Of a DNA stretch of 23,128 nucleotides, positions 4,084-19,043 are shown piece after piece. Position numbers and translations under genes: made by a program. This DNA is from a virus: IMG/VR virus record IMGVR_UViG_3300032241_000177, positions 1 through 23,128 of that record; one strand, written 5' to 3'. The stretch's first letter is position 1. Each line of letters begins with the position of its first letter. The notes under the pieces are model-generated. The model had not been told where the DNA came from, did no database searches, and saw nothing but the letters and a program-made list of their open reading frames with translations.

Positions 4084-4745
4084 TAATAACTCCTATTATG
4101 CATACAGTTTTTAACAGGGCAAAACTTACATAGCGGTCCTGATACTGGATTCCAAACCCCTGATTGCACTGCATTTTCTAGTCGGTTCAGGTCTTGCATG
4201 GCGGACTCTAAATACGCTAAGTGAAACATCCGTTCGTGCTTCTTTTGCACAAACTCGCCACTAACTACAAATACTAGGGCAGACTTAATCTCCAGTACTT
4301 TGGGGAACTTTAAAAACACAGCCGAAGCCATGTAATCTAACTGTTTTAAATCGGCATACTTAGCGTTCTTACTAGTCTTATAATCAACCATATAAGCGCT
4401 ATCGTCGTTAACGATGAGTAAATCAACAATGCCGTGCCACCAGTAATCAGGGCTATCAAATCCACAAGAATTAAACCTACCATTTTTGCATGAAATGCCA
4501 AGTTCAAGTTCACAATATTTATCCCCCTTAATGTTTTCCAAAGACTCAAGAATTGGAACCATGTAGTCATATTTAGGGTGAACAGGTACACCCTTACTGA
4601 TGTAATCCTCAGCAGCTTTGTGTACCTCTTTCCCATAGTTAGTAGCCGTAGTATCTTGTTGGGCTACATCCTTAGCAACCTTCAAATGGTAGTACTTTTT
4701 AGGGCACTGCTGAAATAACTTCAGGCTACTATATGACCACTTCAT
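4083..4745 (-). CDS. Cas4/RecB-like PD-(D/E)XK nuclease with likely iron-sulfur cluster
   Basis: The 220-residue protein has the layout of the PD-(D/E)XK exonucleases related to Cas4 and to the RecB/AddB nuclease domains. GKEVH supplies H42, GIVDLL supplies D108, MVDYKTSK supplies D121 and K123, and KQLDYMA supplies the later Q of the family. C14 together with C206, C209 and C214 matches the four cysteines that hold a 4Fe-4S cluster in this group. The N-terminal SYSSLKLFQQCPKKYY is also typical. Such enzymes cut single-stranded DNA and make or trim ends during recombination. Its start overlaps the stop of a glycosyltransferase gene. The fold and active site are confident; the exact biological task in this phage is unknown. 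Confidence 0.85.
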   Translation of the reverse strand: MKWSYSSLKLFQQCPKKYYHLKVAKDVAQQDTTATNYGKEVHKAAEDYISKGVPVHPKYDYMVPILESLENIKGDKYCELELGISCKNGRFNSCGFDSPDYWWHGIVDLLIVNDDSAYMVDYKTSKNAKYADLKQLDYMASAVFLKFPKVLEIKSALVFVVSGEFVQKKHERMFHLAYLESAMQDLNRLENAVQSGVWNPVSGPLCKFCPVKNCMHNRSY

Positions 4746-5548
4746 TATGCTGACCTTGGCAATGCGCCGCTAAAGTTATAAGTACCTGTATGGGTCAATG
4801 TGCACCAAGGCGCTGCCCAAACTTTAAACCCCGCTTTCCTTGCAATTTTGCAAAAATGGTAGTCTTCAGATAATAGGCGGTTAGATTCTTCGTCAATGCT
4901 AGTAGCAAAGAACTCGTTAATAATCTTAGGTGTGCGCACTGCATCTACTGCGTGGTACATATCGTTAGTATAAGTTGGTACTTTACCAATTAAACCCTCA
5001 AATACCTTGCGCTTAATTAACATAAATCCTGTACCGCCGTTGTCAATTTCAATCGGTGTGTTTATATTAGTAGTTACTTGTTTGTTATCTACAAGGTTTA
5101 CAACAAATGCGCCTGTATATCTTTCTAACTCTTGTGGCGGAACTCCGTTTTTAACTGCCTCTTCTACGGTCATCCAGTTAATTTCTTTCTTTGGATACAA
5201 ACCACAAATGATGTCTTTATCTGCTTTAATCATTGGCGGAATAAAGTTAGGATTAAATCCAATGTCGGCATCAATAAACATTAAATGAGTAGCTTCGCTT
5301 TGTAAAAAGTCATATGCCAAACTGTTTCTAGCACGGGTAATTAAAGACTCATTCATCATAAAGCTATATAGCATGCCAATACGGTTAGCTTGCATTACGC
5401 CAATAGACTGTGCGACAGCAGAAGAATACATACCTGTACATAAACCACCATACATTGGTGTAGCCACAAACAAAATGTTTTCCGGCTTTTGAAATTGCGG
5501 TTGTTGCGGCACTGGCGACTTGCTGGGAATTGCTGGTTTCTTACTCAT
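4745..5548 (-). CDS. GT-A fold glycosyltransferase-like protein
   Basis: This protein has 267 residues. After a proline-rich N-terminus of about 25 residues, the segment LMFIDADIGF carries a D-A-D metal-binding motif with the hydrophobic strand before it, as in GT-A glycosyltransferases. DNGGTGFMLIKRKVFE and a later LLSEDYHFCKIARKAGF match the acceptor and catalytic regions seen in many phage glycosyltransferases of this kind. The reaction would move a sugar from a nucleotide sugar to an unknown acceptor. A strong AAGGAG site precedes the ATG at 5548, which overlaps the previous stop. It is one of four glycosyltransferase-like genes between 4745 and 9325. Donor and acceptor cannot be read from the sequence. 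Confidence 0.75.
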   Translation of the reverse strand: MSKKPAIPSKSPVPQQPQFQKPENILFVATPMYGGLCTGMYSSAVAQSIGVMQANRIGMLYSFMMNESLITRARNSLAYDFLQSEATHLMFIDADIGFNPNFIPPMIKADKDIICGLYPKKEINWMTVEEAVKNGVPPQELERYTGAFVVNLVDNKQVTTNINTPIEIDNGGTGFMLIKRKVFEGLIGKVPTYTNDMYHAVDAVRTPKIINEFFATSIDEESNRLLSEDYHFCKIARKAGFKVWAAPWCTLTHTGTYNFSGALPRSA

Positions 5549-5739: not shown

Positions 5740-5896
5740 TATATTTATCTCCTAGTGCGATAGCGTCATAAACTTGCGCTGATACTCTTAATACGTAAGC
5801 AATATCGTTAGGCGTTAGTTGTCCCATTAGTTGTAATATTTTCATTACAGCAACGTCGTTATCTAATGCTTGGGGTTTTATTAGAGTTTCAATCAT
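5729..5896 (-). CDS. 55-residue hypothetical protein
   Basis: The ATG at 5896 overlaps the TGA of the glycosyltransferase gene upstream (ATGA) and is preceded by GGAGG at good spacing. The reading frame runs 55 codons to TAA at 5729, overlapping the next gene by 11 bases. The product begins MIETLIKPQALDNDVAVMKI and contains LTPNDIAYVLRVSAQVYDAI, which could form a small helix-turn-helix-like pair of helices. I cannot name a family. Tight coupling at both ends and a strong ribosome-binding site make it a real gene despite its size. Function is unknown; a DNA-binding role is only a weak possibility. Confidence 0.6.
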   Translation of the reverse strand: MIETLIKPQALDNDVAVMKILQLMGQLTPNDIAYVLRVSAQVYDAIALGDKYNGN

Positions 5897-6609
5897 TTCA
5901 ACCTCCACGGTAGCGGCTCTTTATAAGCCTGTTTCATTAATTTGTTGCCTTCTTTAAACATTCCAAGTAGGCGTTCGGGTGCTCTGTAATTAACTGTAGC
6001 CTCTCCTGTGCATCCAAAGGAAGGCAAATGTTTGGCGGCAGCTTTATAGAACTGGCGGTCTGCACCCCACTGTCCATAAAAATTGTGCGCCACACCAACC
6101 AAATATTCACGCCGAAAACAATAGCAATTAGTATCAACAAAATTGACAGTATGGTCATAAAACGTCGGGTATCTACCGAGTGCCTCGCAATCATCGTCAA
6201 AAACATATTCGTCTCGTTCATTGATAATTCTCCTTAGTGAGTAAGACCACATTAGTTTTTTGCTCTCTATTTTTCTAATCATGGTTTCCACATGATTGGG
6301 TTCGAACCAATTATCCTCATCCAAAAATAGAATGTAATCAGCGTTTACCATTAACGGCATAGCGGCATAGACTCGGTGTCCATACCAGCCATTACCACCT
6401 ACGTTTTCGGGTAGGGTAAGCCACTGCAAAGGGTTTTCGTAGTTAGGGCTAATCTTATTTAAAAGCATATTAGAAAAGCGGTCAGAAATATCTCCGCTCC
6501 CATCCACAACAATTAAATGCTCAGTTTTGATGCTTTGGTTTCGTACGCTTTCAATAGCCTTTAGCACCGTATCTTTCCCAGTAGTCGGGGTGATTACCAT
6601 TACTCGCAT
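5893..6609 (-). CDS. Family 2-type glycosyltransferase
   Basis: This 238-residue protein starts with the GT2 pattern MRVMVITPTTGKDTVLKAIE, followed by SVRNQ and a strand LIVVDGSGD. Residues around 95-100 (YILFLDEDNWF) hold the D-x-D motif that binds the metal and nucleotide sugar. WGADRQFYKAAAKHLP near residue 185 could be the acceptor-side region. Members transfer a sugar from an NDP-sugar to glycans, lipids or proteins, and phage copies are known that modify DNA or surface glycans. The start codon overlaps the stop of the membrane protein gene upstream (TAATG). The fold is confident; substrate and target are unknown. Confidence 0.8.
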   Translation of the reverse strand: MRVMVITPTTGKDTVLKAIESVRNQSIKTEHLIVVDGSGDISDRFSNMLLNKISPNYENPLQWLTLPENVGGNGWYGHRVYAAMPLMVNADYILFLDEDNWFEPNHVETMIRKIESKKLMWSYSLRRIINERDEYVFDDDCEALGRYPTFYDHTVNFVDTNCYCFRREYLVGVAHNFYGQWGADRQFYKAAAKHLPSFGCTGEATVNYRAPERLLGMFKEGNKLMKQAYKEPLPWRLK

Positions 6610-7752: not shown

Positions 7753-8456
7753 TTCAAACTCTCCCTGCAAAATACGTTAGGTGTTATATCCATTTTGGTA
7801 GATGTTGTGCCGTAAACAATCCTAGTCTTTACGGTTTCTTTGTTATGCACATTAAAGGTAGGCCAAAGTGGTCCTGTGTCTACAGAAATAATATGAGATA
7901 CATACTTAGATAAATTGCCGATGTCGGATACCGACATACCCAAATCCATCGTGCTATAACAAATGTCTGTAGGATGGGTAGTTGCTACAGTAAACCCTTG
8001 GTCAAGTAACTCTTGTGCTTTAGCTTTAAAAAACTCATAGTTAAAATCAGGTAACTGACCAGAGTTAGGTGGGGCGTTAATAATTAGGTAATCAAAATGC
8101 GGGTATACCTGTTTATTTAGCGCTGGATAATCAAACAAGAAATCATCCACAGTCTTAATTGGGTTATCAACCCTCAGCTTTTCAGATAACCTATCAAACC
8201 AAGCAAAGTGAAACTTCACCCAATCTTTTTTATCGGGGTGAGATACCAAAAAATTGCCCGTGTTTATCCACGCATCAACCGCACCAGCCGTTACTTCTGT
8301 GCCACCTAAAGTTATTTCCGTACCCTCAACTAATGGTGCTAACTCTTTGTGGTACATAGGATGGCAATGATGCACCGCAGGAATACCCAAGCGACGCAAG
8401 TAATTTAAGTGAATTAAGTTATCACCTAAATGGTATTGGTTATACGTTATTACCAT
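7749..8456 (-). CDS. GT9/heptosyltransferase-like GT-B protein
   Basis: The start at 8456 (MVITYNQYHLGD) gives 235 residues and overlaps the stop of the upstream gene as TAATG; an ATG at 8486 would need a 30-base overlap. HLGDNLIHLNYLRRLG near the N-terminus matches the G-D-x-x-x-x-x-P/L start of family 9 heptosyltransferases, and the C-terminal half has LSKYVSHIISVDTGPLWPTF, matching the D-T/S-G-x-x-H region but with L-W where these enzymes usually have H. Such proteins add heptose or related sugars to lipopolysaccharide. The family is likely but divergent, and activity is uncertain because of the missing histidine. It is part of the glycosyltransferase group. Confidence 0.6.
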   Translation of the reverse strand: MVITYNQYHLGDNLIHLNYLRRLGIPAVHHCHPMYHKELAPLVEGTEITLGGTEVTAGAVDAWINTGNFLVSHPDKKDWVKFHFAWFDRLSEKLRVDNPIKTVDDFLFDYPALNKQVYPHFDYLIINAPPNSGQLPDFNYEFFKAKAQELLDQGFTVATTHPTDICYSTMDLGMSVSDIGNLSKYVSHIISVDTGPLWPTFNVHNKETVKTRIVYGTTSTKMDITPNVFCRESLK

Positions 8457-9325
8457 TATTTGCTCATTCTTGTAGTTATGTTCCACACAAATGCAAGCGC
8501 TTCGTTAAGGCTAGGCTCTTTTAGTAATAATGGTTGTTCGTAATAGGCTTTGTAAAGTTCTTCATACTCATCCAAGTCTGCTACTCTGTTTACAAAAAAA
8601 GCCATGTCCTTAGTATTCATGTAGTTCAAGAATGCCTGTTCATTAAAGTCGCAATCCACAGACATAGTACCGCTATAAATAGGCACAGTACCGCCAGCGT
8701 ACGCATCAATAAGTTTTTCAGTAACATATCCGTCGTATATAGAGTTCTCAGGGCAAAGGCAGAACTTGTATTCAGGCAAGATATCAAACTTAGATTGACG
8801 TAAAGGATTGCCAAACATATTCCCGTAACCATCTACTTGCTTATACTTTGATATAGAGTTGTACAAGTTCACTCGCAACCCTTCAGGATTACCCGCTATC
8901 ATGGCGCAGAACTTATCCTTGCTTGCTATGTCTAACTTACGACCACGGGTAAGGCTTTTAATATCAATTAAATCTTCATAGCCGTGGTTATGTCCATTCT
9001 CGTCACGAACCTTTTGCTTAAACCTAGGCCAAGCTAAGCGAGCATACCAAAGAGGGAAACGAAAATTCCTACCACCATAGGTATCGTAATCAAAGGAAAG
9101 GCTATAACTGTAATTAACAAAATTAGGGCGTATATTTTCCCCGATAAAGGCAAGTGTTTTTGCAGGGTCGGTAGGGACATTTCCAAATACTGAGGTAACA
9201 ATAAGGTCAGCCGCATGTGGATTGTGAGTATAAACGATGTCACCGAAAGCAGTACGGAAAAAGTAATCAAAGAAATCTCCATCAAATGCCCCTTCCCAAA
9301 AATTAACTACACAAATTGTTTTCAT
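8456..9325 (-). CDS. GT10 alpha-1,3/4-fucosyltransferase-like protein
   Basis: The 289-residue protein carries the diagnostic C-terminal motif of GT10 fucosyltransferases: KFCLCPENSIYDGYVTEK, followed by LIDAYAGGTVPIYSG (about residues 185-220), which binds GDP-fucose. The N-terminal half is the acceptor domain, with FIGENIRP and a basic stretch. These enzymes add fucose in alpha-1,3 or alpha-1,4 linkage to GlcNAc-containing glycans. No signal or membrane segment is seen, so it would act in the cytoplasm or at the membrane face. The start overlaps the stop of the DUF3310 gene (ATGA). The family is confident; sugar donor and target in this phage are inferred. Confidence 0.8.
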   Translation of the reverse strand: MKTICVVNFWEGAFDGDFFDYFFRTAFGDIVYTHNPHAADLIVTSVFGNVPTDPAKTLAFIGENIRPNFVNYSYSLSFDYDTYGGRNFRFPLWYARLAWPRFKQKVRDENGHNHGYEDLIDIKSLTRGRKLDIASKDKFCAMIAGNPEGLRVNLYNSISKYKQVDGYGNMFGNPLRQSKFDILPEYKFCLCPENSIYDGYVTEKLIDAYAGGTVPIYSGTMSVDCDFNEQAFLNYMNTKDMAFFVNRVADLDEYEELYKAYYEQPLLLKEPSLNEALAFVWNITTRMSK

Positions 9326-11362: not shown

Positions 11363-11631
11363 TTTTTCTTTTTCGCCTTTTTAATTAGCTTTTCTTCTTT
11401 AGCTTCTTGCTGGGCTTCTGCATTTTTACGATTCCAAGTCATAATATCTGATGCCTTCTCGTCTAACTTGTCGCTTAATTCTGCTAACACATCTCTTGCT
11501 AGCCATAATGAACCACTCTGAGCATCATCGCTAATGTCTGCCGCTACTAGTTCTACTACCATAGCCGCACTATGAATCTTGTAACTAATTTCGCTAATCT
11601 CATTAGCCTTTTCCCATAAATCATTAATCAT
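11359..11631 (-). CDS. Small hypothetical protein downstream of DNA polymerase
   Basis: The ATG at 11631 gives 90 residues and overlaps the polymerase stop codon as TAATG; a TTG start two codons earlier is possible but not needed. The product begins MINDLWEKANEISEIS and is mostly helical and acidic, with ADISDDAQSGSLWLARDVLA in the middle, then a lysine-rich tail (KLIKKAKKKK). I have seen similar small proteins as phage hypotheticals but know no function. Its place directly after DNA polymerase may indicate a link to replication, which is inference only. Confidence 0.6.
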   Translation of the reverse strand: MINDLWEKANEISEISYKIHSAAMVVELVAADISDDAQSGSLWLARDVLAELSDKLDEKASDIMTWNRKNAEAQQEAKEEKLIKKAKKKK

Positions 11632-13454
11632 TAACAATCTCCATAACTTTTACCATAACCGCTCTCACAATTAAGTGGGAGTTCCTTTGCCCATTCGGGT
11701 CTTAACCGCATGCACATCTCTACAAACTCTTTCGCCGTCTGCGCTTGTGCTTCAGGTACTACGCAAGCAATCGCATCATGCACAGTCATTACTACTTTGT
11801 ACTTCTTGTTGATTTTGAGCATCTGTTCGCCAATGATGATTCTCGCAAGCGCTTGGCATAGATTCTCAACCACTTTGCCCCCGTAGATTCTGTTAGGGAT
11901 AACTGCTCTACCTCTTTTGGTGTCGTATACATATTCACTCTTTCCTTCGGTTTCTTGCTTGCGTAAGTTTGGATACTTCACATACAAGCCATTGGGTAGT
12001 CTGATACCCTTAAGTCCGTCTACATACAACACGCCGTTTCTACCTACATCACAGCTAGCATCCGCTATGATGGCATCCAAAGCTAATCCTGCTTCTCTCC
12101 AAAGGGCAGGTATTTTTGGATAGGTTTGGCGATAGACCGAGATAATACGAGCGGCTTCATCTTCCGCAATCTCCACACCGAATGTCTTGAGTTGCGCCCC
12201 GAATTTCTTGCTCCCCATGCCATAGCCACATCCAAGTATGGTCGTTTTACCGACGAACCTCTCGCCCTCCGATATCTCCGTAACATCCTTACCATAGATA
12301 GCCGAAGCCATGATTTTGTATACATCTTGCCCTTTCTCAAACGCATCAACCAAATCGTCTTGACCAGCCAGCCACGCAATAGTTCTCGCTTCAATTTGTG
12401 ATGAGTCGCTATCAATAATCACATGGTCTTTCGGCGCTACGATGGCACGCTTTAACGTAGATTTGCGGCCCAAGTTCTGCATGTTAATCTTATCGTCGCC
12501 GCCCCATCTGCCTGTGTGTGCCGCATAGTAGCGTAGGGGTATTGGTAATAAGCCTCTGCCGGCAATGTTAATAAATCGCTCAGTTCTTGTTTCTTCTAGC
12601 GTAGACTTAACACCCAAGCGAGCGGCAACTAAGGCTTGTACTGCTGGACTAGGGTGTTCCAGTAAGGCTTTGAACTCCTCATCATTCTTAGCAAACGCAT
12701 AAACTTCTTTGCCTGTTGTAGGACTAATCTTTCTAGGCGGTACAACATTTAAAATCCTTAACATTTCTGCAAAAGTTTCGCCACTCATTAATGAGTCACG
12801 GTTTTCTAGTCCAAGGTTATCAAGTAGTTTTGCTTTTTCATATATTAAGTTTCCTAAATAACTTTTAAGAACGGCTACATCCAGATATAAAGACGGTTCG
12901 CTATACATGCGTATGGTTAAGTCAATTAGTCTTAGCTCGCTTTGTGGAAATTGCGGGGACATGCAGTTAAACAACTTATATGTAAGTTCCGTATCGTTCT
13001 TACAATACTCGCCATACAACGCTAATTCTTCTTCGTTGAAATCTATACGGCGCTTACCTAGCGCTTTGAGTACTTCGTCGCCTTTTTGTCCAAGCCCATA
13101 ATACTCAGTAAGTTTTGCCAAACTACCGCCAACTTCTGTGCTATGTATTGCACGAGCCATGCTAAGTGTATCAAGCCAGCCACGAGGAGCAATCCCAAAA
13201 TGCCAAGTAAGAATAGCGGCATCAAACATAGCGTTGTGAGCCAAGACGAGGTGTTCGCCGAAATTGAACGACTCCAAAAACTTTTTGGTTTGTCCTTTAG
13301 TTCCCGAAAACCATACTGCCTCATTATCATTTTCCTTTACCGATACTCCAATAACTTCAAACTCTGAGCCACGCACATATTCTTCCGTTGTCAGCTTTGA
13401 CAAGGAATAGGTTTGCGAGTAATAGGTCTCAAAATCGAGAGTGTAGATATTCAT
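11631..13454 (-). CDS. Family A DNA polymerase with 3'-5' exonuclease domain
   Basis: The protein has 607 residues. The N-terminal exonuclease domain shows Exo I as LDFETY (D7, E9), Exo II as AHNAMFD (D78) and Exo III as YCKNDTELTYKL. The polymerase domain has motif A as DSDSSQIEAR near residue 346, the motif B region as TTILGCGYGMGSKKFG near 405, and motif C as VMTVHDAI near 555. It is shorter than bacterial Pol I, lacks the 5' nuclease domain and matches the size of compact phage polymerases. It would copy the phage genome. The start overlaps the stop of the gene at 13451-13843 (ATGA). No key residue appears to be missing. Confidence 0.95.
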   Translation of the reverse strand: MNIYTLDFETYYSQTYSLSKLTTEEYVRGSEFEVIGVSVKENDNEAVWFSGTKGQTKKFLESFNFGEHLVLAHNAMFDAAILTWHFGIAPRGWLDTLSMARAIHSTEVGGSLAKLTEYYGLGQKGDEVLKALGKRRIDFNEEELALYGEYCKNDTELTYKLFNCMSPQFPQSELRLIDLTIRMYSEPSLYLDVAVLKSYLGNLIYEKAKLLDNLGLENRDSLMSGETFAEMLRILNVVPPRKISPTTGKEVYAFAKNDEEFKALLEHPSPAVQALVAARLGVKSTLEETRTERFINIAGRGLLPIPLRYYAAHTGRWGGDDKINMQNLGRKSTLKRAIVAPKDHVIIDSDSSQIEARTIAWLAGQDDLVDAFEKGQDVYKIMASAIYGKDVTEISEGERFVGKTTILGCGYGMGSKKFGAQLKTFGVEIAEDEAARIISVYRQTYPKIPALWREAGLALDAIIADASCDVGRNGVLYVDGLKGIRLPNGLYVKYPNLRKQETEGKSEYVYDTKRGRAVIPNRIYGGKVVENLCQALARIIIGEQMLKINKKYKVVMTVHDAIACVVPEAQAQTAKEFVEMCMRLRPEWAKELPLNCESGYGKSYGDC

Positions 13455-13843
13455 ACGTTTATGGTTATTCCGCCGTTTGGAAGGCGTAAGGCTCTTATGT
13501 CTTCTAGTGAAGGTGCTTTCGTTCCGTCTAGGCGCAATTTGGTTTTTGGCGCTTTCGCAATAGAAGATGATAGTTCCTCATCTACAAGAAGTTCCCGCAT
13601 GATTGATTCGTCAAACTGCTTGCGTCTGACGCTGATTAACCCTGCATACAAAGCATCTACTTCGGCAGGGGTTAGCGTATCGTGATTGCTTTTGTTCTCT
13701 AGCTTAGCTTTAATAACACCTTGAACGATTGGATGCCATCTAGGTAATTGTCTACCGCTTGATACACCTAGTCCAAATTCCTCAGGATTGCTTTCCATTC
13801 GGGCAAGTAATATCTTTACTCCTGTGCAAAACTCATCACTCAT
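13451..13843 (-). CDS. Phage hypothetical protein upstream of DNA polymerase
   Basis: I do not recognise a domain in this 130-residue protein. It starts MSDEFCTGVKILLARMESNP, a pattern I have seen in phage hypotheticals, continues with a mixed helical core (RQLPRWHPIVQGVIKAKLEN) and a LTPAEVDALYAGL helix, and ends with LRLPNGGITINV. There is no membrane segment. Both ends overlap neighbours by ATGA: it follows the VRR-NUC gene and precedes the polymerase, so the three are probably made together. A replication-linked function is a guess from position. Confidence 0.6.
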   Translation of the reverse strand: MSDEFCTGVKILLARMESNPEEFGLGVSSGRQLPRWHPIVQGVIKAKLENKSNHDTLTPAEVDALYAGLISVRRKQFDESIMRELLVDEELSSSIAKAPKTKLRLDGTKAPSLEDIRALRLPNGGITINV

Positions 13844-14133
13844 AGCAATTCCTTAATGGTTGTTTCTAACAATGTTAGGTTTGATTCGTTTATGACTAGC
13901 GCAGTACCACCAGCAGTTTTAATGGCAGCCAGTTCTCGTTCTTGTAACGCAGTTGTTTTGCCTTTGCCAGCCTTGCACTCGATGGCTAAAAATTTACCAG
14001 CAACGCAACAAATAATATCGGGGATACCCGCACGACCCATACCGTTGGCAATGGGATAAAAGTAATACACGCCGTTAGCCTTGAGTAGCTTAACGCAAGA
14101 TGCTTTTACTTTTGATTCGGGTGTAGATGCCAT
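13840..14133 (-). CDS. VRR-NUC domain endonuclease
   Basis: This 97-residue protein is a stand-alone VRR-NUC nuclease. GRAGIPDII gives P38-D39, and KFLAIECKAGKG gives E52 and K54, the D-x(n)-E-x-K active site of this PD-(D/E)XK branch. An early glutamate (E6) may serve as the usual first acidic residue. Relatives cut branched DNA, such as Holliday junctions and flaps. The ATG at 14133 has no Shine-Dalgarno sequence, and the -10 box of a strong promoter ends seven bases upstream, so the transcript may start on the ATG itself. One CTAACA-type palindrome lies in its 3' end (13866-13878). Confidence 0.85.
   Translation of the reverse strand: MASTPESKVKASCVKLLKANGVYYFYPIANGMGRAGIPDIICCVAGKFLAIECKAGKGKTTALQERELAAIKTAGGTALVINESNLTLLETTIKELL
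13866..13878. repeat. CTAACA/TGTTAG palindrome copy
   Basis: CTAACAATGTTAG is a perfect 6+1+6 inverted repeat within the last codons of the VRR-NUC gene, where it encodes L-T-L-L. It is the leftmost copy found. Confidence 0.75.
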
Positions 14134-14404: not shown

Positions 14405-15244
14405 TTACTCTCCTTTTAGTATGACATAGGTATTCTCGTTTACCCTAGCACCAGTACCTTCAATCACAAAGCCATCTTGCACCAGCTTGAGTAACCCTAG
14501 TCTGCGTCTAATTAGCTCAGGTACTTTATCGCTTGGCAATACGGTTATCTCATCGCCTTCGCCTACGATATAGTCCATACCCATAAGCACCACATTATAA
14601 GTGCTATTGGTTCTAAACGCTTTGTATACATCTTCCACATACATCGCTTCTTTCATAGAATCGGGCATCTCGTTGGCTATCTTTACCTCTTCGTTGTTTG
14701 TAAGAATTGCTTTGAACGAATCAAAGTTAAGCGTAATATATTCTTTAATAGCCCTATCCAAAGCACGCCATCTACTTTGCATCTCTTGGTTCTTGCGCTG
14801 AGCAAACCTACCTACTACTTGGTCTGCTACTTGCTTAGATTCTGTATATCGTTCTACTAAGTTCTTGGTATAGAAATGCTTTTCCACTAGCTTGATAGCT
14901 TTATCTACCTTAGTAGTTTTCTTAGCATAACCTCGTTGTAACTCCTGTCCAATACGGTCATTGTGTATACCATACGCATAGCTACGACCAAACCATTCTG
15001 TTCTCAACGAACCTAACTGTTCACGCTTCTCTAGTACTTTGAACTGCGTAATCTCTATTGTCTCTTGACCAAGGCGGTTAGCGCTAGTGCCTACGAATGT
15101 CCACTCAGGATGCTTAACCGCCAACGCTTGCACCAACGGATACATAAACTTACTTACCCCTGCTACCTTACGCTGACTTGATTTCTCCATCTCGTCATAA
15201 CTAATGTTAGGTAGGGTCAATTCAATATAACTTTGCTCACTCAT
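14405..15244 (-). CDS. Large phage hypothetical protein
   Basis: I cannot name a family for this 279-residue protein. It begins MSEQSYIELTLPNISYDEME and has a mixed alpha/beta first half with a strand-like pair WTFVGTSANR and ETIEITQFKVLEK, suggesting a small sheet. The middle is strongly basic and helical (YAKKTTKVDKAIKLVEKHFY, then VVGRFAQRKNQEMQSRW). The C-terminal part has DYIVGEGDEITVLPSDKVPE, and the end is strand-rich. Basic patches may bind nucleic acid. The ATG at 15244 has AAGGA upstream. It lies 21 bases after the DUF3150-like gene, so it may belong to the MoxR/VWA module. Confidence 0.55.
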   Translation of the reverse strand: MSEQSYIELTLPNISYDEMEKSSQRKVAGVSKFMYPLVQALAVKHPEWTFVGTSANRLGQETIEITQFKVLEKREQLGSLRTEWFGRSYAYGIHNDRIGQELQRGYAKKTTKVDKAIKLVEKHFYTKNLVERYTESKQVADQVVGRFAQRKNQEMQSRWRALDRAIKEYITLNFDSFKAILTNNEEVKIANEMPDSMKEAMYVEDVYKAFRTNSTYNVVLMGMDYIVGEGDEITVLPSDKVPELIRRRLGLLKLVQDGFVIEGTGARVNENTYVILKGE

Positions 15245-15265
15245 TTTCTTTTCCTTATGTTCTTG

Positions 15266-16117
15266 TTACCAATCAAACTTGCCGAGGATGTCATCAATCT
15301 TGGACTTAACAGTTACTCTAGTATGCGGATTCTCTTTGATATCTTCGATGTCCACACCTAACATTGTTAGTTCCAAGGCACGCCTAGCTTCCTCTAACTT
15401 AGGGTCATTAGTAATGTTTAAGCTAGTCAGCATGGCACACATCTGTTGGGCATTGGTAACAAAGGTATCATGATACCGCTTCTTATCCTCACCATCTACA
15501 TCCGCTAGCTTGCCACTCATTGTGGATAACAGAGTATGCAAGTCTTCCCAAGGCTTACGCATCGCCACCTCTAGTCGCTGTGCAAAGTCTGCTTCGTACT
15601 TCTGTGCTATCTCTTGCATATCTAAGTTAGGGATATCCAAACGAAAATCTCCAGCCTCAGGCAATGGGCTAAATACCAAGCGGAATCCAAACCTACGCTT
15701 GACTTCTTCAATCGGCGGATAGTCCTGCTCGTTAAACAAACTGCCCATATAGTTCTTCGATGTCTGTACTAGCGCATCGTAGTTGTCATATAGCTTTTGT
15801 GTAAGCGAGTTAAAGTGCGCTTGCTTTACATTCATGTTCTGCTTGTAGTCCATAAACATAGATGTCGGTAACAGTCGCCCACCCTTATCAGCCCAAGGCA
15901 AAGTTACCTTGTTGTTATACAGTCGCACACTTGCGGCAAAGTCGCTAATGTCTTTACGCAAACTGGTTCCAGCCAGTAAGTTCTTGCGTACCTGTGCTGA
16001 GTTTTTACCTGCTGAGTTATCCGCAATCACCGCTTCGGTTGCACTTTTGTCTAATTTATTAGCGGGCCAAACACTAATGTTTAACTCTACCAATACTGCG
16101 CTAGATGCTATGCTCAT
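15266..16117 (-). CDS. DUF3150-like protein of the MoxR/VWA module
   Basis: The 283-residue protein has an N-terminal strand LVELNISVWPANKLDK, a phrase close to the D-V-S-I-W opening of DUF3150 proteins. A long helical region follows (LRKDISDFAASVRLY, then MNVKQAHFNSLTQKLYDNYD), with a late helical part (LEEARRALELTMLG). DUF3150 proteins are known next to AAA ATPase and VWA genes in bacteria and phages; the same neighbours are present here at 16638-17822 and 17976-19043. Its function is unknown, and a structural or adaptor role is plausible. The start overlaps the stop of a short membrane gene (ATGA). A CTAACATTGTTAG copy is inside it at 15358-15370. Confidence 0.6.
   Translation of the reverse strand: MSIASSAVLVELNISVWPANKLDKSATEAVIADNSAGKNSAQVRKNLLAGTSLRKDISDFAASVRLYNNKVTLPWADKGGRLLPTSMFMDYKQNMNVKQAHFNSLTQKLYDNYDALVQTSKNYMGSLFNEQDYPPIEEVKRRFGFRLVFSPLPEAGDFRLDIPNLDMQEIAQKYEADFAQRLEVAMRKPWEDLHTLLSTMSGKLADVDGEDKKRYHDTFVTNAQQMCAMLTSLNITNDPKLEEARRALELTMLGVDIEDIKENPHTRVTVKSKIDDILGKFDW
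15358..15370. repeat. CTAACA/TGTTAG palindrome copy
   Basis: CTAACATTGTTAG is a perfect 6+1+6 inverted repeat within the DUF3150-like gene, encoding L-T-M-L in frame, about 90 bases before the stop. Confidence 0.75.
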
Positions 16118-16221
16118 AATAGTATTACTCCCATTCTGATTAAAATATCACCGACAATTACACCTGATAGAAAAGCTACCAAGTGCCACGCTACATACTC
16201 GCTTCTTCCCATTTCTAACAT
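16114..16221 (-). CDS. Short single-span membrane protein (32 or 35 residues)
   Basis: The frame ends at TGA 16114, overlapping the start of the DUF3150-like gene (ATGA). Starts are possible at ATG 16221 (MLEMGRSEY, with GGAAAGG upstream) or ATG 16212 (MGRSEY). The product has one hydrophobic segment (WHLVAFLSGVIVGDILI) and reads as a membrane peptide of 32-35 residues. The longer start codon lies inside a CTAACA-type palindrome, which could control its translation. A real gene is likely from the coupling, but function is unknown. Confidence 0.5.
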   Translation of the reverse strand: MLEMGRSEYVAWHLVAFLSGVIVGDILIRMGVILL

Positions 16222-16227
16222 TTGTTA
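16210..16227. repeat. Extended palindrome copy over a start codon
   Basis: CATTTCTAACATTTGTTA on the plus strand holds a palindrome with a two-base centre (one outer base changed). It spans the two alternative ATG codons of the short membrane gene. Nearly the same 18 bases recur at 20541, 21950 and 23110. Confidence 0.65.
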
Positions 16228-16482
16228 CCTTTCCTGTGGTTTACCAGCCATTTTTGCTACACGATACAAACCTTCGGGTAACAAGCTAAACTGAACTACA
16301 CCTTCTTGGGTATCCTGTTCCCATACATGGTATGTATGAAAGCTAGGCTTATCGTTTTCAACCCTGTGGTACTTGTCGTCATACCTTTCTGCTTTACTTA
16401 ATATCCCGCACAAAGTAATAGCGTCTTCAGCATTTACAACATACTTCATGAATCCAATATTCACTACGCATTTAGAGCTCAT
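16225..16482 (-). CDS. Small hypothetical protein
   Basis: The start at 16482 (MSSKCVVNIGFMKYVVN) gives 85 residues; it has AAAGG upstream and overlaps the end of the 54-residue gene by 11 bases, while the longer frame back to 16596 would lie over that gene. The product is mixed alpha/beta with NAEDAITLCGILSKAERYDD, an aromatic segment FHTYHVWEQDTQ and a final strand VVQFSLLPEGLYRVA. I do not recognise a family. Two cysteines are present, with no membrane span. It sits between the VWA gene and the DUF3150-like gene and may belong to that module by position only. Confidence 0.5.
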   Translation of the reverse strand: MSSKCVVNIGFMKYVVNAEDAITLCGILSKAERYDDKYHRVENDKPSFHTYHVWEQDTQEGVVQFSLLPEGLYRVAKMAGKPQER

Positions 16483-16636
16483 CTTCGCTAACCTTTCTGT
16501 GTTCGTTGTGTAAACTGGCTTCCAACATTTCGAGGGCTTTAGTCCAGCCTTGTTCGTAGAAAAACTCCGCAGTACCTCGAGTAATCTCATCTTCAATTTG
16601 ATAGTCCTTGTTAAATTGTTCTTTCCACTTCTTCAT
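16472..16636 (-). CDS. 54-residue hypothetical protein
   Basis: The frame runs from ATG 16636, with AAAGGATTGAT before it, to TAA 16472. The product begins MKKWKEQFNKDYQIEDEITR, has an aromatic-rich helix GTAEFFYEQGWTKALEMLEA and ends in a charged tail (HRKVSEDEL). I know no family. It follows the VWA gene by one base and overlaps the next gene by 11 bases, so it is part of the same run of coupled genes. A strong frame with a plausible ribosome-binding site makes it likely real. Confidence 0.55.
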   Translation of the reverse strand: MKKWKEQFNKDYQIEDEITRGTAEFFYEQGWTKALEMLEASLHNEHRKVSEDEL

Positions 16637-16637
16637 A

Positions 16638-17822
16638 TCAATCCTTTACTCGTATCGTCTTACCAATAGGGGATACTGCATTGCCCCCACCGACTATTGC
16701 CCATAGCATCGGCACATTCTGCCATTCATCATCTGTACCCCAATCGCCGATGTAGCCATCAGTTAGATTGATAATGCACTCGGGTTTAATACCTTGGTCT
16801 TTCAGATGCTTAGCCATACATGTTGGGTCTGTGCCACCGCCACCCATTACCTTGGTATCACTAACAATGTTAGTTATCGCCGAACCTTCATACTGCTCAT
16901 GGTTTGCAACCTCTGCATCCCAATACACTAGGTCAATCTTCTCGGGTGCTACTTCATCCACAATACCCTTGACCTCGGCGATACACTCGGCAATCTCCCT
17001 AGCACCTTGACTGCCACTCGTGTCAATACCTATCGCAATATGTCCAACCTTCTCACCTATCATGCTAGGCATATACACATCACCAGCGAGATATCTACGA
17101 TTAGGTCTGCGCCATGAAGATGTATCCTTGGCACTACAAACTGACTTAACAAATTCACGCAGTTGTTCACGCCAATCCACCTTTGGTTCAAGCATGGATT
17201 CAATCTCACGATTCATCCCGCCACCACCTTTACCATGTAGCTTAGTAGCCGCAATCGCACCTGACCGCAATGCTTGGTCAATCTCCTTGCCTAACTCCTT
17301 CTTGACCTCATCGGTTAAGTCCTTTGCACCATCCCAATCATGCTCATCGAATCCACCACCACCGCTATATCCTTCTTCCTTTAGGATGTCGAATACTTGC
17401 TTAGCGTTAAGACCTCTAAACCTTTCGTCTACTAAGCCATACGCTTTACCATCTTTCTTAGGCATAGCTATGGTTTTCTCGCTTGGGTCTAAGTCTTTCA
17501 GTTGTAGATTGATTACATAATCACATGCCGCATTTGCCAGTTGCTTATCTTCATCGAATAGCTTGCGCCATGTAAATAGATGCCGATACGCCTTGTGCAT
17601 ATTCTCATGTAACACCACAAAGGCTAACTCTCGGTCATCCAATGTTGCAATGAACTCTCGACCATACATTTCATCTCGACCATTAGTGCATGCAGTTGGG
17701 ATATCATCTCGTACGCTAGTACGACCAACCATCAATATGCCTGACCAAAATGCAAACTCAGGGTTACGCATTAGACTAATTTTCGTCTTCTTCAATCTGC
17801 GTTCTTGCTTGTCGTCTGCCAT
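16638..17822 (-). CDS. Metallopeptidase-like/VWA-domain protein (CobT/MoxR-partner type)
   Basis: The start at 17822 (MADDKQERR) gives 394 residues, with AAGGAG upstream. Residues 65-81 include LHENMHKAYRH, an H-E-x-x-H zinc-site pattern (H72, E73, H76) as in the DUF2201-type putative metallopeptidase domain. After a Gly-rich linker (about 153-203), a C-terminal VWA-like domain follows with the metal-site motif IGIDTSGS (D267, S269, S271), T331 in GGGGTDP and LTDG (D355). Such proteins work with MoxR-type AAA ATPases, which remodel targets; the ATPase gene is upstream at 17976-19043. The pairing is strong; the target in this phage is unknown, and peptidase activity is unproven. Confidence 0.8.
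   Translation of the reverse strand: MADDKQERRLKKTKISLMRNPEFAFWSGILMVGRTSVRDDIPTACTNGRDEMYGREFIATLDDRELAFVVLHENMHKAYRHLFTWRKLFDEDKQLANAACDYVINLQLKDLDPSEKTIAMPKKDGKAYGLVDERFRGLNAKQVFDILKEEGYSGGGGFDEHDWDGAKDLTDEVKKELGKEIDQALRSGAIAATKLHGKGGGGMNREIESMLEPKVDWREQLREFVKSVCSAKDTSSWRRPNRRYLAGDVYMPSMIGEKVGHIAIGIDTSGSQGAREIAECIAEVKGIVDEVAPEKIDLVYWDAEVANHEQYEGSAITNIVSDTKVMGGGGTDPTCMAKHLKDQGIKPECIINLTDGYIGDWGTDDEWQNVPMLWAIVGGGNAVSPIGKTIRVKD
16861..16873. repeat. CTAACA/TGTTAG palindrome copy
   Basis: CTAACAATGTTAG is perfect, inside the VWA gene, where it encodes T-N-I-V-S, a different frame from the L-T-x-L copies. Confidence 0.75.
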
Positions 17823-17976
17823 CTGCTTCTCCTTTAGAATCATCAAAAAAATCCTCGAACTTATAACCTTTCTCCAACAAAATGCGTCTCATCTTTCCCA
17901 ATGCACGCATCTGTATCTGTCGTATTCGTTCTCGGCTTACTGTTTCTCGTTCTACTGCGTTGCGCTTCTTACCCAT
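17776..17976 (-). CDS. Small sigma70 region 4.2-like HTH protein
   Basis: The protein has 66 residues. Residues 11-31 (ETVSRERIRQIQMRALGKMR) closely resemble the recognition part of sigma70 region 4.2, which reads V-T-R-E-R-I-R-Q-I-E-A-K-A-L-R-K-L-R in housekeeping sigma factors. The following LLEKGYKFEDFFDD also parallels the sigma factor C-terminal end. There is no room for regions 2 or 3, so this is not a full sigma factor. It may bind -35 DNA, or compete with or adjust host sigma70. The start overlaps the stop of the MoxR gene (TAATG), and it overlaps the VWA gene start by 47 bases. The resemblance is clear; the action is inferred. Confidence 0.65.
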   Translation of the reverse strand: MGKKRNAVERETVSRERIRQIQMRALGKMRRILLEKGYKFEDFFDDSKGEADGRRQARTQIEEDEN

Positions 17977-19043
17977 TAGAGTAAGTCCTCATTCTTAGCT
18001 ACCCAGTCACTAAACTTACGGCTACTAAATGCAATCGCTTGCTTACTACTAGACTTAGCGATATTGATAGCAAAGCACGCTTGCCACTCGGATTCAAAGC
18101 GTTCGAGATAAGTCATAAAGTCATCAATCGTGTCTTTAGTTACCTTAGCAATCGCACCGAATACCACAATCGCACAAGCACCAGCACTTGTAGGTACTAG
18201 CGCAGTCTTAGGGTTTTGGATGGTACTTTCCCAAGTTGGTAACTGGTCTGAGTACTCAATAAACGCTTGCATATCACGACTTGCGGCTTCACCGATTGCG
18301 CCAGTAAGAGCATTGATGATAGTTTCGTTATCTAAAGAACCGCGCTTTCTAACAATGTTAGATGCAGTCTCCAATGAACGAGGCGATACAAACGCTGTCT
18401 GTACTTTCTTAGGGTTAAAGATGTACGGATTATCTTGCTGACCCTCATCGGTATAGCTAGCCATCGCCTGTGGGAACTGACGCACCCATGCACAAACCTC
18501 AGCCTCGATGCCATTGTTGATAGCCCAGTCTAACCACTCGTCTGCGCTTGGCTTGCGTACTGTTACTTCAACAATACGATTGCGAGTATGCGCTTTCATG
18601 TTATCGCCAACGCCATCACTATTTAGATTGCCTGTGAGAAATACAATAGATTCAGGGTTGATAGATACATCGCCCAATCTTGGGTTAGCCTTCTCCAACA
18701 TCGGATGCAACATATTCTTAATTGGCTCAGCACCTTTGGTGAACTCATCTAACATTGTTATGACTGGCTTACCTGTATGAACCTTGAACCTACGATTAGG
18801 GTAGTACGCAGTAGTTTTGGTTTCATGGTCTACGACTGGCATAGCAATATCGCCCAAGTCCATGTTAGGTACATCAATGTATGCAATCTCATGGTCGGGT
18901 AGGATTGCACCTAGCATCTTAAGTAGAGATGATTTACCGATGCCTGGCTCGCCACGCAACATATACCGATTCTCAGGGGTTGCGAGGATAAGTTCGGATG
19001 CTTGCTTAAGAGTTACTGTTCTACCAAATTGAATATCTGCCAT
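17976..19043 (-). CDS. MoxR-type AAA ATPase
   Basis: This 355-residue protein has the AAA fold. Walker A is GEPGIGKS (31-38), Walker B is ITMLDE (95-100), sensor 1 lies in LTGN (136-139), an arginine-finger candidate is in AHTRNR (R154/R156), and SPRSLE supplies sensor 2. The early D-x-x-D-L segment and overall size fit MoxR/CobS-type ATPases, which act as chaperones on targets brought by VWA proteins. A VWA protein is encoded just downstream. The ATG at 19043 has AAGGA upstream. The 126-base leader from the promoter at 19176 contains a terminator-like hairpin, so expression may be attenuated. Two palindrome copies lie inside the gene. Confidence 0.88.
   Translation of the reverse strand: MADIQFGRTVTLKQASELILATPENRYMLRGEPGIGKSSLLKMLGAILPDHEIAYIDVPNMDLGDIAMPVVDHETKTTAYYPNRRFKVHTGKPVITMLDEFTKGAEPIKNMLHPMLEKANPRLGDVSINPESIVFLTGNLNSDGVGDNMKAHTRNRIVEVTVRKPSADEWLDWAINNGIEAEVCAWVRQFPQAMASYTDEGQQDNPYIFNPKKVQTAFVSPRSLETASNIVRKRGSLDNETIINALTGAIGEAASRDMQAFIEYSDQLPTWESTIQNPKTALVPTSAGACAIVVFGAIAKVTKDTIDDFMTYLERFESEWQACFAINIAKSSSKQAIAFSSRKFSDWVAKNEDLL
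18349..18361. repeat. CTAACA/TGTTAG palindrome copy
   Basis: CTAACAATGTTAG is perfect, inside the MoxR gene, encoding S-N-I-V-R. Confidence 0.75.
18749..18761. repeat. Near-palindrome copy in the MoxR Walker B region
   Basis: CTAACATTGTTAT differs from the palindrome only in the last base. It lies over the Walker B codons (I-T-M-L-D-E), so protein constraint may explain it. Confidence 0.5.

Follow-up and report, generated by a model that had tools for sequence, protein, structure and literature searches.

MoxR-type AAA+ ATPases are found together with von Willebrand factor A (VWA) proteins in several described systems: NorQ/NorD, RavA/ViaA and CbbQ/CbbO each combine a MoxR ring with a VWA partner bearing a metal ion-dependent adhesion site (MIDAS). 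We know of no DUF3150 protein in these three systems. The locus considered here resembles them and has such a protein in addition. It lies in a 23,128-base virus record (IMG/VR IMGVR_UViG_3300032241_000177, positions 1 to 23,128; "the window" is this whole stretch), whose long genes are on the minus strand, and it joins a MoxR-type ATPase, a DUF2201 protein with HExxH and VWA domains, and a DUF3150-family protein into a linked triad that is probably a protein-remodelling machine common to mobile DNA elements. Papers are cited below by PubMed Central (PMC) number. Unlike the target proposed for the present triad, those of NorQ/NorD, RavA/ViaA and CbbQ/CbbO are host enzymes. For NorQ/NorD, modelling seats the VWA domain on the MoxR ring and leaves to the MIDAS the probable task of gripping the target (PMC9976466). 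VMAP ternary systems also unite MoxR, a vWA protein and a third protein; there, however, the third protein is VMAP, and the systems are proposed to be conflict systems of multicellular bacteria (PMC7159879).

The closest phage relatives contain the pair. MoxR and VWA are among the core genes of N4-like phages (PMC4193335, PMC7650795), and gp24-gp25 of these Schitoviridae belong to the same two families and lie, like the window genes, near a polymerase gene, gp39 being taken as polymerase (PMC7650795); unlike the window, the N4-like stretches searched (L086, L105; compared stretches are cited by such numbers) yielded no DUF3150 relative. In group 2.2 jumbo phages MoxR adjoins a VWA protein that carries, as here, a metallopeptidase domain at its N-terminus, and a role in virion assembly has been proposed; that paper makes no mention of DUF3150 (PMC7824862), and the triad in contrast occurs in plasmids and in phages of much smaller size, the largest contigs being about 60-67 kb. 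The task of MoxR/VWA pairs in phages, described as not settled in the initial annotation of this DNA, indeed is not, although these reports show that the pair is far from unexplored. No result on N4 gp24/gp25 was found in the portion of the CRISPRi-ART main text used. Phage MoxR-VWA pairs have thus been published before; the DUF3150 triad was not found in the open-access literature, and no paper naming the DUF3150 family, or joining it to MoxR and VWA, was found in open-access PMC text.

All three proteins read in the initial annotation are present in one direction, as judged by open reading frames, Pfam and PHROG matches and alignment, and the phage origin agrees with the source of the window, a virus record. 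The best Pfam match of the ATPase, AAA_5, falls just below the cut-off (21.4 vs 22 bits). Among solved relatives its profile finds Midasin best (E 1.1e-33), then ClpB (2.8e-11); the Midasin match and the adjoining VWA gene place the ATPase in the MoxR/midasin branch of AAA+. NCBIfam returned no MoxR name for it, which counts against this assignment. Both acidic residues of Walker B (D and E), the sensor 1 N and the arginine finger are identical in 72/72 rows (rows shorter than 80% of the window protein were left out), and the Walker A K is kept in 69, the other three being gaps, so that these sites are intact in every ungapped row.

The DUF2201 protein scores above both Pfam cut-offs (DUF2201_N 104.6 bits, DUF2201 48.8 bits) and matches PHROG 1314 (E 3.8e-88). 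Its start is placed at the ATG at 17822, preceded by an AAAGGAG box; the listed TTG at 17846 is less likely. The HExxH motif has an additional His five residues on, and all nine counted HExxH and MIDAS (D-S-S-T-D) positions are identical in 81/81 rows (the window and 80 loci). In a wider VWA alignment that includes plasmid, N4-like and phage G copies, both DUF2201 models are matched by 49/49 rows at E 0.001. PHROG 1314 and many RefSeq phage records carry the label "HNH endonuclease" for this metallopeptidase/VWA protein. An HNH identity was rejected, since none of the 49 rows reaches any HNH family at E 0.001, and the label is apparently an error that passed into RefSeq names. Four papers in open-access PMC text name DUF2201, and none was seen to deal with its function.

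The third protein, in its window copy, has no PF11348 match at E 0.1; where this model is found among the aligned family members (Table 1) the best value is 1.2e-5, and two genome matches lie under the Pfam cut-off. The window protein finds three phage records (26% identity over 99%), of which the match in cyanophage MinM2 is named DUF3150. Thirteen columns, spread over most of the length and including W17 and D23, are invariant among 43 rows, and the first 20 residues form the best conserved block (mean 0.80 vs 0.45-0.71 in other blocks). The predicted structure (predicted local distance difference test, pLDDT, 82.5; predicted template modelling score 0.52) begins with a strand (7-15), continues with a middle part of mixed structure and is helical in its C-terminal half. 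It matched nothing in the PDB at E 0.001, an absence that excludes no fold, and in a viral structure library at the same threshold it matched only DUF3150-named, uncharacterised or unnamed proteins; in a second search the best match was a designed protein (Z 9.6, root-mean-square deviation 2.5, 105 aligned, residues 179-283 only). VMAP-C was not among the Pfam matches of the 43 rows, and whether Pfam holds a VMAP-C model is unchecked.

The three genes stay together in related viruses. In the best 80 of 269 viral stretches matching the VWA protein, MoxR is present in 73, all seven misses having at most 587 base pairs (bp) before the VWA gene, and DUF3150 is likewise present in 73, four of the seven misses having at most 745 bp after it. 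When DUF3150 is the seed, and the best 80 of its at least 590 confirmed matches are taken, VWA is recovered in 75 and MoxR in 55; all VWA misses have a contig end at most 529 bp away, and all MoxR misses one at most 2520 bp away. As some contigs are in both sets, the two are not independent. The order is DUF3150-MoxR-VWA in L070, L071, L091 and L092, and in MinM2 it is MoxR-x-DUF3150-xxx-VWA, a single run with small genes interspersed. The order varies by lineage, yet the genes keep one direction and remain neighbours, a pattern not accounted for by chance. That the three make up a single module is well supported by their co-occurrence in related phages, a distant cyanophage and plasmids. Both refuting conditions named in the initial annotation, missing co-occurrence and broken active sites, come out in favour of the module.

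On plasmids the window DUF3150 protein matches 44 records at E up to 1, and a plasmid copy finds 42 records, with VWA in 41 of them and within 200 bp in 40; NZ_CP015038, unlike these 40, has VWA 2,782 bp from the listed DUF3150 piece. Burkholderiales plasmids with a PRTRC system carry the same three families, consecutive and co-directional, but in the order MoxR-DUF3150-VWA. The PRTRC ThiF gene occurs in at least 34 of the 42 DUF3150 plasmids, at least 31 times within 15 kb by linear coordinates, among the matches listed (60 of 367 ThiF records). PRTRC as a required partner was rejected, because 367 plasmid records have ThiF relatives but 42 have DUF3150, and no cassette of ParB-related and ThiF-related genes was seen among the scanned window proteins, some small frames being unscanned and the window a fragment. 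PRTRC is a neighbour only, specific to Burkholderiales plasmids. A genome scan gave six loci, of which L091-L094 have the full triad and L090 has its VWA gene cut by a contig end. Among 300 genomes from the taxonomic order to which the Variovorax genome belongs, DUF3150 is in three (including that genome), each time adjoining VWA and MoxR. Among the sampled genomes the triad is thus rare, and it is typical of mobile elements.

We propose, with a probability of roughly 40%, a three-protein remodelling machine (MoxR ring, DUF2201 gripper, DUF3150 handle or adaptor) that acts on the element's own DNA-handling apparatus. The MoxR protein would form an ATP-driven ring, onto which the DUF2201 protein would dock its VWA domain while its MIDAS metal, for which the target must offer an acidic residue, grips a partner; this mode may be extended to the triad because NorQ/NorD shows it. 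DUF3150 would be the third, target-facing subunit or the gripped handle itself, with the conserved N-terminal strand and the invariant W17 and D23 as the likely contact. Because MIDAS sites bind acidic residues of their targets (PMC9976466), D23 is a natural candidate for the MIDAS contact. The HExxH zincin domain could be a second tool that trims or holds the target, which would be the element's own replication, transcription or partition complexes. Less likely than not, though plausible, is the fullest form of this reading, in which the triad is an undescribed ternary ATP-driven remodelling protease common to phages and plasmids, DUF3150 is the handle bound by the MIDAS, and the complexes acted on are those for replication or partition of the element itself.

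Several observations weigh against this proposal, and they concern both the third partner and the target. Two loci with VWA proteins 78% identical (L002 and L003) keep MoxR and VWA and are truly without DUF3150, and L027 keeps just a 31-codon remnant (L027:7496-7591), start fused to end, which may be a natural deletion, a decayed gene or an assembly error. In L095, from the genome scan, DUF3150 stands without the MoxR-VWA pair in the examined stretch. Most phage pairs lack DUF3150, none of its relatives being found in 13 other phage stretches (L086-L089, L101-L109). The pair by itself is widespread: at E 1e-5 the VWA protein finds 745 phage records, and the MoxR protein finds 248. Distances within the triad correlate (Spearman 0.75-0.85) no better than those with PolA (0.77-0.83). 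Mirror-tree correlation was accordingly rejected as proof of special co-evolution: because PolA distances correlate as well, none is shown within the triad. The remnant in L027 also bears on a highly improbable alternative, a proteolytic switch, in which the ring would feed DUF3150 to the HExxH domain and the cleaved N-terminus would be the active product: the remnant keeps exactly the start of DUF3150, the block that is best conserved, and HExxH is intact in every row. The rest of DUF3150 is conserved too, however, as its invariant columns show, L027 may be an artefact or a decayed gene, and in L002 and L003 the peptidase persists although its supposed substrate, DUF3150, is absent.

A hidden DUF3150 relative in N4-like, rv5-like or jumbo phages was rejected for now, none appearing at useful E-values in the 13 stretches, and none was found in stretch L112 of plasmid pSYSA. 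No common small protein was found behind VWA in the same 13 stretches; only L107 and L109 are alike. In a VWA tree of 30 rows the DUF3150-bearing proteins fall into three groups, requiring three changes, and a single clade is not rejected (approximately unbiased test, p-AU 0.077). In Pseudomonas phage Ab09, whose gp24/gp25-like rows belong to the matching profiles and were first found by tblastn, a second AAA-like ATPase is seen by eye just before the gp24-like gene (L086:3858-4646; MoxR profile E 1.1).

As for the target, a DNA-handling complex is preferred to the virion because the triad is also on plasmids and phage copies are often beside replication or nucleotide genes. Replication, transcription or nucleotide genes are present within the examined flanks in 8 of 14 annotated phage neighbourhoods (L082, L086, L088, L089, L102, L105, L107, L108), and the window unit adjoins VRR-NUC and PolA genes. 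Genes labelled structural adjoin the pair in 2 of the 14 (L102, L105), and roseophage RPP1 encodes four virion proteins near its gp24/gp25 homologues (PMC4193335). Both favour a virion-assembly chaperone, in which the MoxR ring and the VWA/metallopeptidase would build or process a part of the virion, as proposed for jumbo phages and as is reported for the tail system of the archaeal virus ATV (cited in PMC7824862 and PMC7159879). This role is rather unlikely here: plasmids carry the same triad and make no virions, the window unit stands beside polymerase and nuclease genes, and gp24 and gp25 of N4 are middle genes (PMC4193335).

Host take-over had been suggested alongside remodelling in the initial annotation; in such a take-over or counter-defence role the module would unfold or cleave a host protein such as a defence complex or a part of RNA polymerase. 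Remodelling fits MoxR/VWA pairs generally; take-over, without direct support here, is an unlikely reading. It would suit the co-encoded sigma-region-4-like and BrnA-like small proteins and the presence of the triad on phages and plasmids alike, both of which face the same defences. Take-over genes are usually variable, whereas the triad distances follow PolA as those of a core gene would; moreover, the triad matches no PADLOC family, and the sigma-like gene is in just 11/80 loci and the BrnA-like gene in 27/80.

The proposed remodelling machine is encoded amid smaller genes (Table 1). From the promoter-like site the order is MoxR, the 66-residue protein, DUF2201, three small frames, DUF3150-like, the 279-residue protein, the BrnA-like protein and a terminator-like hairpin. 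Sites resembling a promoter and a terminator do stand at the ends of the unit, as had been noted, but both are matches to consensus, and the promoter consensus alone proves nothing because the region has fewer promoter-like sites than its shuffles (9 vs a mean of 16.5). A second such site (14167-14140) lies upstream of the nuclease, the 130-residue protein and the polymerase.

Table 1. Features of the minus-strand unit and its immediate neighbours (window coordinates; aa, amino acids).
Feature	Position	Strand	Basis or occurrence
Promoter-like site, TTGACT-17-TACAAT with TG	19204-19176	-	consensus match only, 10/12
MoxR/midasin-type AAA+ ATPase, 355 aa	17976..19043	-	PHROG 1297 'ATPase', E 2.5e-45
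Protein with sigma-70 region 4.2-like recognition helix, 66 aa; optional part	17776..17976	-	overlaps both neighbours; Sigma70_r4
DUF2201 protein, 394 aa: N-terminal HExxH zincin-like domain, C-terminal VWA with full MIDAS	16638..17822	-	PF13203 and PF09967 over cut-off
Small open reading frame, 54 aa	16472..16636	-	read from sequence; relatives in 2/80 loci
Conserved small protein, 85 aa (listed as 123 aa from TTG start)	16225..16482	-	relatives in 39/80 loci
Hydrophobic small open reading frame, 35 aa	16114..16221	-	read from sequence; no relatives found in 80 loci
DUF3150-family protein, 283 aa, third triad member	15266..16117	-	relatives in 73/80 loci; PF11348 in 14/43 aligned members
279-aa protein, family unassigned, after DUF3150	14405..15244	-	relatives in 68/80 loci
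BrnA-like ribbon-helix-helix protein, 55 aa	14236..14403	-	PF14384 BrnA_antitoxin, E 3.3e-7, 31.0 bits (cut-off 26.1)
Terminator-like hairpin and T run	14209-14191	-	consensus match only
Replication genes after the unit, outside the triad	11631..14133	-	VRR-NUC-like nuclease (13840-14133), 130-aa protein, PolA-type DNA polymerase with exonuclease (11631-13454)

The other members assigned to the unit are all present. The 66-residue protein resembles sigma region 4 (E 0.001, below the Pfam cut-off, over 18 residues only), but it is no stable part of the unit: in 4 of the 11 loci with such a protein, the gene is far from the position of the window gene. Sigma-70 region 4.2-like proteins are seen at differing places (L058:8461-8748, L060:9672-9959, L049:12260-12499, L041:15990-16313). 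The 279-residue protein is conserved among the viral loci and evolves fast (mean distance 0.78), yet its model is very confident (pLDDT 95.7). It has no clear structural relative, a search having given three viral matches, all uncharacterised, and a further one a best Z of 5.2, which excludes no fold, and no relatives were found in plasmid stretches L083-L085. The ribbon-helix-helix protein, whose BrnA-like relatives lie at most 300 bp after the 279-residue gene in 12 of 27 cases, could act as a local repressor or be an antitoxin without its toxin. Between the 85- and 279-residue genes of L002, the place of DUF3150 is taken by a protein that resembles, by eye, the 130-residue protein before PolA. 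Beyond PolA the window encodes a SNF2-type helicase, an exonuclease, a minor head protein and glycosyltransferases; three glycosyltransferase-like genes (4745-5548, 5893-6609, 8456-9325) stand beside the replication genes, one of them of fucosyltransferase family GT10.

The analysis corrects the widespread "HNH endonuclease" label. The core MoxR-VWA pair of N4-like phages is still without a known target, and a third partner that travels with the pair in phages and plasmids would provide a concrete handle on it. The triad offers a candidate adaptor, a short conserved stretch at the putative contact as a site for mutations, and versions on plasmids, for whose testing no infection is needed.

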